Below, in pieces: positions 37,772 through 45,809 of a stretch of DNA of 64,000 nucleotides (within the stretch, counting starts at the first letter, position 1; every line of letters starts with the position of its first letter). Source of the stretch: Erythrobacter sp. Its GTDB lineage: Bacteria; Pseudomonadota; Alphaproteobacteria; Sphingomonadales; Sphingomonadaceae. The position numbers and the translations under genes were made by a program. The notes under the pieces are model-generated. The model worked only from the letters and a program-made list of their open reading frames with translations. It made no database searches and was not told the DNA's origin. The DNA is taken from the NCBI GenBank assembly GCA_023653115.1, contig JAMNXO010000001.1, positions 372,001-436,000 of the forward strand, read 5' to 3'.

Positions 37772-37779
37772 AGCCTTGA

Positions 37780-37888
37780 AGCCCCCTCCTCTTCAGAGGA
37801 GGGGGTTGGGGGTGGTGCAGAGCTGAGGCGCGGCGTTTCTCGCCGCGCAACCACCCCTCTATCCCCTCCTTTGAAAAGGAGGGGAGGG
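37780..37888. repeat. REPIN-like nested palindrome (class A) downstream of lepA
   Basis: Hairpin 1 is CCCCCTCCTCT-TC-AGAGGAGGGGG, followed by TTGGGGGTGGTG. A central palindrome GCGCGGCG-TTTCT-CGCCGCGC (37828-37848) comes next, then AACCACCCC and hairpin 2 CCCCTCCTTTT-G-AAAAGGAGGGG. The whole element is symmetric. The same half-unit recurs at 45217-45308 and 45675-45710 around the DUF559 gene. May terminate lepA transcription. Confidence 0.8.
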
Positions 37889-37985
37889 AGAAGCTAGGAG
37901 CGAGAGGGCGCATTCCGGCCGGGGGGGCTGCGAAGCAAGACCCGTTCGACGTTAAGACGCGGCTTTGCCGTTGCTAACTTTCAAT

Positions 37986-38029
37986 CCTCCCCTTCAGGGG
38001 AGGGGGACCACCGAAGGTGGTGGAGGGGC
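37986..38029 (-). repeat. Class B double-hairpin repeat, copy 1 (inverted)
   Basis: Reads CCTCCCCT-TC-AGGGGAGG then ACCACC-GAA-GGTGGT then GGAGGGG. It is the reverse complement of copies at 39128-39174 and 39813-39858. Relative to those, its second stem has T:A to C:G changes on both sides, a compensatory difference. Confidence 0.8.
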
Positions 38030-38082: not shown

Positions 38083-38180
38083 CCCCCCCTCCCGCCTGCG
38101 GGAGGGGCTGGGGGTGGGCGTGTAAAAGCGCTCGCTCCGCTCGTTCCCACCCCTAACCCCTCCCGCAGGCGGGAGGGGGA
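38083..38180. repeat. REPIN-like inverted pair (class C) upstream of the HNH gene
   Basis: Two hairpins CCCCTCCCGC-CT-GCGGGAGGGG and CCCCTCCCGC-AG-GCGGGAGGGG face inward GGGGTGGG and CCCACCCC segments. The right hairpin ends five bases before the HNH start codon, so its GGGAGGGGG serves as the apparent Shine-Dalgarno. With the class A and B elements, this fills the 413-bp gap 37772-38184, which has no gene. Confidence 0.8.
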
Positions 38181-39127: not shown

Positions 39128-39174
39128 GCCCCTCCACCATCCTGCGGATGGTCCCCCTCCCCTGAAGGGGAGGG
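39128..39174 (+). repeat. Class B double-hairpin repeat, copy 2
   Basis: ACCATC-CTGC-GGATGGT followed by CCCTCCCCT-GA-AGGGGAGGG. It lies between the convergent HNH and ccdB genes. It is inverted relative to copy 1 (other side of the HNH gene) and direct relative to copy 3 (other side of ccdAB). Confidence 0.85.
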
Positions 39175-39187
39175 TTGCGCGCTGCTC

Positions 39188-39812: not shown

Positions 39813-39858
39813 GCCCCTCCACCATCCTACGGATGGTCCCCCTCCCCTTGAGGGGAGG
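39813..39858 (+). repeat. Class B double-hairpin repeat, copy 3
   Basis: ACCATC-CTAC-GGATGGT followed by CCTCCCCT-TG-AGGGGAGG. It is a near-identical direct copy of 39128-39174. It lies between the ccdA promoter and the 3' end of the unknown gene at 39876. Confidence 0.85.
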
Positions 39859-43452: not shown

Positions 43453-43526
43453 TTCGTTGGGACGCCTGTTCGAAACTCGCCGCGCCACCGTGACCTGCGC
43501 ATGGGCTTGCGCTAGAGGCTGTGGTG

Positions 43527-45194
43527 ATGCTCACCCGCCTGTCGATCCGCAACATTGTCCTTATCGAAGCGCTCGATCTCGATTTCGCGCGCGGGCTGGG
43601 CGTGCTGACGGGGGAGACGGGGGCGGGCAAGTCGATCCTGCTCGACGCGCTGGGGCTGATTCTCGGCGATCGGGCCGAGACCAGCCTGGTGCGCGCCGGC
43701 GAGGACAAGGCGAGCGTTTCGGCCAGTTTCGAATTTGCCGCGCTCCCCGCTGGTATTGCCGCCGCGCTCGATGATGCCGAGATCGCGATCGAACCGGGCG
43801 AGCCGCTGATGATCCGGCGGCAGGTCAAGGCCGATGGCGGTTCAAAAGCCTTCATCAATGATCAGCCCGCCAGCGTCGCCTTGCTGCGCGAATTGGCGCC
43901 CGCGCTGGTCGAACTCCACGGCCAGCATGATGATCGCGGGCTGGTGAACCCGCGCGGCCACCGGCTGCTGCTCGATCGCTATGCCGGGACCGACACCGCC
44001 GGGCTGGAGCGCGCCTTTGCCGATTGGGCGCGCGCTGAAGCGCAACTGGCAGAGGCCCGCGCCGATGTCGAACAGGCCAAGGCCGATCAGGATCTGCTGA
44101 TTGCCCATCTCGCCGAACTTGCCGCGCTGGAGCCGGTGGCCGGCGAGGAAGCGCGCCTCGCCGCCACCCGCGCCGATATGCAGAAGGGCGAGAAGCTGGC
44201 GGGCGATCTGGAGGGCCTGCGCCACATCTGGGAAGGCTCGGATTCGCCGCTCGCCGCGTTGCGGGTCGCCGCGCGCAAGCTTGACCGGATTGCCGATCAG
44301 CACCCGCTGCTCACCGAGGCGCTCGCTGCGCTTGACCGCGCGGTGATCGAGGCGGGCGAGGCCGAGGAGCGGCTGGAGAAGGCCGCCGAGGCGCTGCTGC
44401 ACGATCCCGCCGCACTCGAAAATGCCGAAACCCGCCTGTTCGAACTGCGCGCCGCGGCCCGCAAGCATCGCTGCGATGTGGACGATCTGCCCGAGCTGAT
44501 GCGCACCATGCGCCAGCGCTTGGATGCGATCGAGGGCGGGGAGGCGCAATTGGACGCGCTGGAGGCCGGCGCAAAGGAAGCCCGCACCGCCTATCTGCGC
44601 GCCGCCGAGGCTGCGCATGAGGCACGCGCTGCGGCTGCGGGCAAGCTCGATGCGGCGGTGGCGGCGGAACTCGCTCCGCTGAAGCTCGATGCCGCGCGCT
44701 TCCGCACACAGGTCGCCAAACTGCCCGAAGACCGCTGGGGCGCGAGCGGCATGGACGCGGTGGAGTTTCTGATCTCGACCAACCCCGGCGCGGATTTTGC
44801 GCCGCTCAACAAGATCGCATCGGGCGGCGAATTGTCGCGCTTCATCCTCGCGCTCAAGGTCGCGCTGGCGGAGAAGGGCGGGGCGGCCACCATCATCTTC
44901 GACGAGATCGACCGCGGCGTGGGCGGGGCGGTTGCCAGCGCCATCGGTGAACGTCTGGCGCGGCTCGCGTCGCAGGAAGGCCAGTTGCTGGCGGTGACGC
45001 ACAGCCCGCAGGTCGCCGCGCGCGGGGGGCAGCATTACCTCATCGCCAAGGCCTCCAGCGGGATCGTGACCAAGACTTCTGTGGTGCTGCTCGATGCGGC
45101 GGGGCGGCAGGAGGAGATCGCGCGGATGCTGTCTGGGGCGGAGGTGACGCCCGAGGCGAGAGCGCAGGCGGATCGGTTGCTGGAGGGGGTGTGA
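43527..45194 (+). CDS. recN: DNA repair protein RecN
   Basis: SMC-like ATPase acting in double-strand break repair. 555 residues: MLTRLSIRNIVLIEALDL, Walker A GETGAGKSIL, central coiled coils (~155-360), ABC signature SGGELSRF, Walker B TIIFDEIDRGVGG and H-loop AVTHSPQVAA. ATG 43527 is preferred; two in-frame GTGs precede it. The downstream DUF559 frame begins directly at the stop. Confidence 0.96.
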   Translation: MLTRLSIRNIVLIEALDLDFARGLGVLTGETGAGKSILLDALGLILGDRAETSLVRAGEDKASVSASFEFAALPAGIAAALDDAEIAIEPGEPLMIRRQVKADGGSKAFINDQPASVALLRELAPALVELHGQHDDRGLVNPRGHRLLLDRYAGTDTAGLERAFADWARAEAQLAEARADVEQAKADQDLLIAHLAELAALEPVAGEEARLAATRADMQKGEKLAGDLEGLRHIWEGSDSPLAALRVAARKLDRIADQHPLLTEALAALDRAVIEAGEAEERLEKAAEALLHDPAALENAETRLFELRAAARKHRCDVDDLPELMRTMRQRLDAIEGGEAQLDALEAGAKEARTAYLRAAEAAHEARAAAAGKLDAAVAAELAPLKLDAARFRTQVAKLPEDRWGASGMDAVEFLISTNPGADFAPLNKIASGGELSRFILALKVALAEKGGAATIIFDEIDRGVGGAVASAIGERLARLASQEGQLLAVTHSPQVAARGGQHYLIAKASSGIVTKTSVVLLDAAGRQEEIARMLSGAEVTPEARAQADRLLEGV

Positions 45195-45216
45195 GTGGAG
45201 GTTTCGGATCAAGGAC

Positions 45217-45308
45217 GCCACCACCCCCCGAGCCCCTCCTCTGACGAGGAGGGTAAGAAGGGCGACAAAGCCCCCTCCTCTTCAGAGGAGGGGGTTGGGG
45301 GTGGTGGC
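45217..45308. repeat. REPIN-like inverted pair (class A) between recN and the DUF559 gene
   Basis: Outer arms GCCACCACCCCC and GGGGGTGGTGGC are exact reverse complements. Inside are hairpins CCCTCCTC-TGAC-GAGGAGGG and CCCCCTCCTCT-TC-AGAGGAGGGGG. The right half is the same unit as in 37780-37804. Confidence 0.85.
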
Positions 45309-45311
45309 GTT

Positions 45312-45809
45312 TTGCCAGAAACGCTGCACCAGCGCGCCCGGATGATGCGCAACAACCCGACCGAACCGGAAAAGCGCCTTTGGATGGCCTTGCGAGACAG
45401 CCGTTTTGCTGGCTTCAAGTTTCGTCGACAGGATGTGATTGGCCAGCGGATCGTTGATTTCTTTTGCCCGGCAAAGGGCTTGGTGATTGAGGTTGATGGC
45501 GAAACCCATGATGCCGAGGCCGATAAGAGGCGCGATCTGCAGATGCTGAGGGCGTCGGGGTTCACGACCGTGCGATTGACCAACGCCGATGTGATGGGAA
45601 ATCTTGAAGGGTGCCTGACGAGATTGAAGATGGTGCTGGAAGATTTGCCTGAGCGTTGGGCTGGCGCGGCGCGTCACCACCCCCCGGCCCCTCCTCTGAA
45701 GAGGAGGGGGAGTAATGCGCCTCCTTCCCATCCTCCTGCTCGCCGCCACCGCCTGCGCTCCCATTACGCCCGCGCCCGAGGAGGCCAAGCCCATGGTGCA
45801 ACCCAATAA
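45312..45809 (+). CDS. DUF559 (Vsr-like) endonuclease domain protein, embedded in repeats
   Basis: Recognisable part RARMMRNNPTEPEKRLW to LKMVLEDLP (about residues 8-112) is a DUF559 PD-(D/E)xK nuclease domain: VDFFCP aspartate, VIEVDG acidic pair, and KRRDLQMLRASGF. The frame is open from GTG 45195, right after recN, but that stretch only translates the repeat; TTG 45312 or ATG 45342 are likelier starts. The C-terminal ~50 residues are also read through a repeat and 95 bp of the next gene, so the original stop has probably been lost. GC is lower than its flanks. Substrate unknown. Confidence 0.7.
   Translation: MPETLHQRARMMRNNPTEPEKRLWMALRDSRFAGFKFRRQDVIGQRIVDFFCPAKGLVIEVDGETHDAEADKRRDLQMLRASGFTTVRLTNADVMGNLEGCLTRLKMVLEDLPERWAGAARHHPPAPPLKRRGSNAPPSHPPARRHRLRSHYARARGGQAHGATQ
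45675..45710 (+). repeat. Class A half-repeat downstream of the DUF559 domain
   Basis: CACCACCCCCCGG followed by CCCCTCCTCT-GA-AGAGGAGGGG. It is inverted relative to the right half of 45217-45308, so the nuclease domain is bracketed by inverted repeats. It ends four bases before the ATG of the next gene and supplies its SD (AGGAGGGGG). Confidence 0.85.

Follow-up and report, generated by a model that had tools for sequence, protein, structure and literature searches.

A DUF559 nuclease gene between inverted REP-like repeats in Erythrobacter sp.: a candidate REPtron-like unit with a nuclease

In the RAYT/REPIN system, as presented in the parts of the two reports consulted (PMC3116915, PMC8266576), the enzyme gene adjoins its own class of palindromic repeats, these repeats are dispersed as inverted doublets, and several such pairs are found in one genome. 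In the part of the latter report consulted, the spread of short palindromic repeats is treated as unsettled even with an adjoining transposase (PMC8266576). Here we describe a similar arrangement in a 64,000-nt stretch of Erythrobacter sp. DNA (GCA_023653115.1, contig JAMNXO010000001.1, positions 372,001 to 436,000), hereafter the window. As in the RAYT/TnpA_REP 'REPtron', a DUF559 gene lies beside its own REP class, the repeats are dispersed as doublets, several DUF559-repeat pairs can coexist in one genome, and the DUF559 lineage matches the repeat class, with exceptions. In contrast to RAYT, a Y1 HUH transposase, DUF559 is predicted to be a Vsr-like PD-(D/E)XK nuclease. GTAG was observed at the foot of none of 189 stems and anywhere in the 10 nt of only one of the 189; the commonest feet among them were AAAG (25), AACT (10), and AAAT (8). 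Since the organisation parallels RAYT/REPIN, while the enzyme and the missing GTAG foot place the unit outside the RAYT definition, we refer to it as REPtron-like with a nuclease.

Other known systems were also compared. The placement of the DUF559 gene between the two halves of a REP pair would fit a homing endonuclease system, although no homing event was observed, and the homing endonuclease I-Bth0305I was the closest solved structure to the modelled window protein after NGO0050; no intron or intein came to notice, and unlike that of a homing endonuclease, the target of DUF559 would be a dispersed repeat. The very short patch repair endonuclease Vsr (1cw0) was a weaker match with a fold similar to that of the model, and the window protein differs from Vsr in that Pfam recognises DUF559 alone in it. 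VsrA and YcjD are DUF559 proteins like the window nuclease. The inverted ends around one gene and the additional gene-less copies resemble MITEs and insertion sequences, unlike which the unit is without a transposase, and no target duplication was established at the ends of the Root241 copies described below. No earlier report of a DUF559-repeat link was found in the literature searched, which left most subscription journals outside.

The features of the locus are listed in Table 1. Each REP-like unit was built of a pyrimidine-rich palindromic stem, a short loop, and a G-rich tail, and the tails of both units adjoining the DUF559 gene pointed at the gene. The initial annotation had placed this gene inside inverted REPIN-like repeats and had assigned the same geometry to an 'empty' element at 37780-37888. 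Both claims were confirmed: the arms 45246-45309 and 45672-45735 form inverted repeats of 64 nt with 78% complementarity, and the empty element is a doublet with inward tails and no gene. The sequence at 37779-37817 is identical to that at 45268-45306 over 39 nt, and 37782-37817 and 45675-45710 are inverted copies with 92% identity over 36 nt. The frame, which had been said to run through the repeats on both sides without its own stop, is indeed open across both repeats from 45195 to 45809 (204 aa), with no stop ahead of the right REP; TTG at 45312 or ATG at 45342 or 45345 is likelier to be the start than that of the long frame. A stop-free frame proved typical of the host's family when 91 of the 99 loci with a flank-pair score of at least 16 were scored. 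The frame was open from the left stem to the domain in 67 of the 91, no stop occurred before or within the right stem in 71, and an in-frame start was present between the left stem and domain codon 8 in all 91; the median stem-to-stem length was 446 nt.

Table 1 Features of the window around the DUF559 gene and its gene-less repeats.
Feature	Position	Strand	Remarks
Gene-less REPIN, class of the window nuclease element	37779..37888	.	Stems 37782-37805 and 37862-37885, tails inward
REPIN, second class (CCCCTCCCGC..GCGGGAGGGG)	38085..38179	.	Class also found on both sides of L001, the second DUF559 gene of the host with paired repeats
recN gene	43521..45194	+	557-aa ORF; PF02463 (RecF/RecN/SMC domain), 60 bits; directly upstream of the element; name recN assigned by us to this RecF/RecN/SMC-domain ORF
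Outer REP unit, left pair	45217..45253	-	Tail towards 45217, stem 45234-45253
Left REP, nuclease element	45271..45309	+	Stem 45271-45294, G-rich tail towards the gene
DUF559 nuclease, stretch modelled	45312..45659	+	Pfam domain 45324-45638
Right REP	45675..45709	-	Tail towards the gene, stem 45688-45709
Alpha/beta hydrolase gene	start 45715		After the right REP

A third repeat class, consisting of two hairpins (CCTCCCC..GGGGAGG and then GGACCA..TGGTGGAGGGG), was present in the window at 37985-38029, 39128-39177, and 39813-39858. The same class also flanks DUF559 genes in four genomes of the family (G049, G086, G093, and G128).

Subsequently, the association was examined across 149 genomes of the host's family, 129 of which contained PF04480 (DUF559) in a patchy distribution of 0 to 10 copies each. 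The initial annotation had proposed to ask whether DUF559 genes are flanked by the repeat more often than chance; stems were found on both sides of 93 of 114 distinct DUF559 loci, compared with 4 of 819 other ORFs taken from the same stretches. The two flanks shared an exact inverted match of 12 nt or longer at 51 of 60 DUF559 loci from 60 genomes against 19 of the 819 ORFs, and one of 14 nt or longer at 37 of the 60 against 2 of the 819; these 60 loci and most of the 114 were the best-scoring DUF559 matches. Chance pairing of G-rich flanks was ruled out by cross-pair scores and these ORF controls. The flank-pair score reached 16 in 99 of the 114 loci, and in eight genomes sampled more fully it did so in 45 of 50 loci (59 matches listed). 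Furthermore, the tail faced the gene in 67 of 71 callable upstream stems and 62 of 72 callable downstream stems (28 and 33, respectively, were undecided). These results suggest that the DUF559 enzyme and the hairpin repeat form one system, because the gene lies between inverted copies of a repeat that is also dispersed in the same genome.

DUF559 genes without the repeats, which the initial annotation had named as a refutation, do occur as exceptions. Fifteen of the 114 family loci scored below 16, as did all five loci from metagenome-assembled genomes that we took for Chloroflexi, and among the three DUF559 loci of the host, the window locus and L001 had paired repeats whereas L003 had none. 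When named loci were selected by protein similarity (the best 80 of 566 confirmed relatives, less one with too short a flank), 59 of 79 scored at least 16, compared with 4 of 288 ORFs; the passing loci included Alpha-, Beta-, and Gammaproteobacteria, Desulfobulbaceae, a Nitrospirae, and a Gemmataceae MAG. In the rest of the phylum, 13 of 28 loci scored at least 16, a weak result since the cross-pair control was noisy (95th percentile, 24). In plasmids, 46 of 72,556 records matched, several of them chromosome-sized.

We then considered what the enzyme is. The window protein matched PF04480 with 97.9 bits (cut-off, 20.6), and this was the sole Pfam family found. In 49 aligned rows, E, D, and ExDG were invariant and H was conserved in at least 90%. 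An AlphaFold2 model of the protein, built with 48 relatives in the alignment, had a mean pLDDT of 89, and Foldseek with this model returned NGO0050 (3hrl; E 5.9e-7), the I-Bth0305I catalytic domain (3r3p; 1.2e-4), and Vsr (1cw0; 3.2e-3), in that order. A profile match to I-Bth0305I was also obtained (E 6.5e-4). By this model, the window DUF559 protein is a PD-(D/E)XK nuclease with a Vsr-like fold, and it belongs, like I-Bth0305I, to the EDxHD type. E. coli YcjD, which is annotated as DUF559, was earlier counted among PD-(D/E)XK nucleases in the part of the report consulted (PMC1189080). According to the part of another report consulted, the DUF559 protein VsrA of Caulobacter (CCNA_02930) causes a DNA-damage/SOS response in cells without a cytosine methyltransferase (PMC12907096), a phenotype indicating that at least one DUF559 member acts on DNA in cells.

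The correspondence between nuclease type and repeat class was compared at several levels. The two flanks of one DUF559 gene had a median score of 30.5, against 10.5 for flanks paired with those of another DUF559 gene in the same genome; by these scores, each DUF559 has a private repeat variant. Protein similarity correlated with repeat-unit similarity both between genomes (Spearman 0.383, 4732 pairs) and within a genome (0.388, 119 pairs) in 99 of the 114 loci, the 15 below score 16 being left out, and neither value was reached in any of 500 permutations. Stems of the window class numbered 241 in 22 of the 149 genomes, and 219 of them lay in the 23 genomes that had a window-class nuclease, defined by a best match of at least 105 bits. 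This cut-off was picked with the list in view, and cut-offs of 100 and 120 bits were also run; at 120 bits, the class test weakened to p = 4e-4 for at least two copies and 0.06 for at least ten. All five genomes with at least ten window-class copies had a window-class nuclease, and no window-class stem was found in G086, G147, and G093, which have 10, 7, and 7 DUF559 genes, respectively, without the window nuclease type. The match has exceptions: among the 23 genomes with the nuclease, 12 had fewer than two window-class stems, 4 of the 126 without it had at least two, and G027 and G111 had the nuclease and many DUF559 genes, yet no window-class stem. In a 400-kb sample of G049 (evenly spaced 20-kb pieces), which also contained inverted repeat pairs, the unit of one DUF559 gene (L116) occurred in 17 copies, compared with none in the G086 sample and none in stretches from 20 other genomes. 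Of the 13 DUF559 units from G049 and G086, the other 12 gave between 0 and 4 copies when the samples of their own genomes were strictly searched, and several of these had as many or more matches in other genomes.

Taken together, we consider it probable, at roughly 0.6, that the locus is a REPtron-like unit in which a DUF559 nuclease sits between inverted REPs, matching REPINs are dispersed, and copying is driven by the nuclease. From the fold, the position, and the class matching we infer that a cut made by the nuclease in its repeat initiates the copying. Its target would be the cognate stem-tail unit, folded into a hairpin or cruciform or present as duplex, which it would recognise and then nick or cut. 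Host recombination would mend the break with another REPIN as the template, and such repair copying may amplify and homogenise the repeats. It counts against this reading that a hydrolytic nuclease alone is unable to join strands. Now and then the repeats, or the gene, might reach new sites in the fashion of a homing endonuclease. More broadly, it is quite possible, though short of probable, that these loci represent a class of transposase-free mobile DNA, in which DUF559 nucleases cut their own hairpin class and host recombination copies the REPINs and rarely the gene itself, widespread in Pseudomonadota and present beyond, with several independent pairs per genome. A second, unrelated enzyme family here takes part in the same partnership as RAYT, in many genomes without a RAYT match. 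This reading offers a function for a family so far named for the lack of one, and it may explain where many hairpin repeats come from; the presumed substrate flanks each nuclease gene, which opens the reading to direct tests.

The number of DUF559 genes correlated with the number of stems over the 149 genomes (Spearman 0.635), part of which is trivial because a nuclease with paired repeats adds two stems or more by itself. In 57 genus pairs, more DUF559 went with more stems in 35 and with fewer in 9, with 13 ties; host phylogeny was corrected for by these genus pairs only, in the number correlation as in the similarity correlations above. Stem counts reached hundreds in some genomes. DUF559 was present in 55 of the 56 genomes with at least 20 net stems, and 42 genomes had DUF559 with fewer than five net stems. 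The initial annotation had also cited repeats in genomes lacking DUF559 as a refutation, and the one genome of the 56 without DUF559, G045, is such an exception: it contained 94 stems of the general pattern, partly as doublets, while DUF559 had no match in it. The nuclease may have been lost or may fall in an assembly gap, or the stems may have another mobiliser; no nuclease-sized gap was found among the stem pairs listed, which cover part of its stems.

These counts bear on the alternative that DUF559 is a homing-type parasite landing in REPINs that other machinery spreads. The gene does have one half of a REPIN-like pair on either side, the modelled fold is near that of I-Bth0305I, and gene-less REPINs are present in the same genomes. 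Such machinery in the form of RAYT, however, was mostly missing: the Y1/RAYT transposase (PF01797) matched in 26 of the 149 family genomes and not in the other 123, among them the host (assembly 86% complete), and RAYT was hence rejected as a hidden general driver. Genomes with PF01797 were richer in stems (median 36 against 8), but 37 of the 38 genomes with at least 20 net stems and no PF01797 match had DUF559. Moreover, general landing sites would not predict repeats and nucleases matched by class. We regard such a parasite as unlikely.

Inheritance was examined at orthologous loci. In orthologous DUF559 sets of Sphingopyxis and Mesorhizobium, dN/dS was 0.03-0.09 at dS 0.66-2.4; it was higher elsewhere, at 0.14-0.19 for the Root241 copies and 0.13-0.25 for the recN-linked set, in which one pair was saturated. 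In two orthologous sets, the left terminal units had 57 invariant columns out of 61 in one and 62 out of 63 in the other, and the right ones 54 out of 58 and 59 out of 65; for third codon positions the figures were 29 out of 105 and 32 out of 104. This contrast holds against third codon positions only, codon positions 1 and 2 being 76-87% invariant and the upstream stretch invariant in 147 and 168 of 190 positions. The low dN/dS and the near-invariant terminal units indicate that the nuclease gene is under purifying selection and in use and that the terminal hairpins are maintained.

The position of the gene was compared by coordinates among 95 genomes with a recN match (a 175-aa C-terminal recN query matched in 95 of 99 family genomes), and the sequence was read for G000, G088, G062, and G056. 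In at least seven genera (G000, G088, G062, G056, G084, G072, and G040), recN was followed downstream by a DUF559 gene of the window type at a distance of about 1.1 kb or less. By our reading, the hydrolase starts directly after recN with no insert in G093 (L170), and ligase or other genes are next to recN in several other genera; G069 and G008 carry apparent repeat remnants after recN without the gene. Divergence was too great for exact ends to be read from such empty sites. The nuclease comes directly after this break-repair gene in the window (43521-45809) and at three further recN loci (L144, L157, and L160), and SOS control common to both genes is a candidate idea.

The conserved ends, the several family members after recN, and the VsrA damage response in cells without a cytosine methyltransferase (PMC12907096, in the part consulted) would all suit another alternative, namely that the hairpins serve the gene itself, for example as terminators or as elements for expression control or messenger stability, or that the nuclease is a repair enzyme processing hairpins, with scattering as a secondary matter. 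The class-specific dispersed inverted doublets and the copy-number correlation would be left unexplained, and we judge this alternative improbable. It is hardly credible that repeats and a small accessory gene merely gather in the same permissive intergenic gaps; the patchy copy number of DUF559 would fit, but neighbouring ORFs almost never have stems on both sides as DUF559 loci do, and each locus has a flank pair of its own.

The initial annotation had left a choice between a passenger and an enzyme that spreads the repeat. The private repeat variants, the protein-repeat correlation, the class-matched copy number, the total-number correlation, and the hairpins kept at orthologous loci are difficult to explain if the gene is a chance passenger. 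Spreading by the enzyme is favoured here as an interpretation; the sequences compared showed no event of cleavage, excision, or insertion.

With respect to movement, Sphingomonas sp. Root241 contained three DUF559 copies, 86-90% identical, in different contexts. These may be segmental copies, since the flanking sequence is common to them beyond the stems; the homology past the right stem corresponds to a separate dispersed repeat. A fourth match (73%, query 53-529) starts and stops at stems, and we count six inverted doublets of this repeat class among those listed for the genome. One copy (L323) had TAG and CTA feet and inverted ends with no clear target duplication. The separate repeat of about 180 nt (L272 4403-4600; L324-L331) adjoins the right end of the three copies; it had eight further matches, one of which (contig C4) may adjoin another DUF559 stretch.

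Finally, E. coli was considered as strain-level support and dropped, because ycjD is flanked by a REP-like unit on the downstream side only and lineage was a confounder. The sapF-ycjD query had a place with at least 80% cover in 3361 of 5426 E. coli genomes. In our own count of 60 spread rows, one of which was set aside, the downstream unit had on average 3.0 further places in genomes with ycjD (n = 37) and 1.6 in those without (n = 22), a lineage-confounded difference. This unit is a 41-nt stem and tail (L354 2295-2335, L357 1500-1541, and L358 701-741). It is found again at zntA-tusA, and a minority of genomes also carry it at ypfG-tkt, where the two other alleles read had a different sequence.
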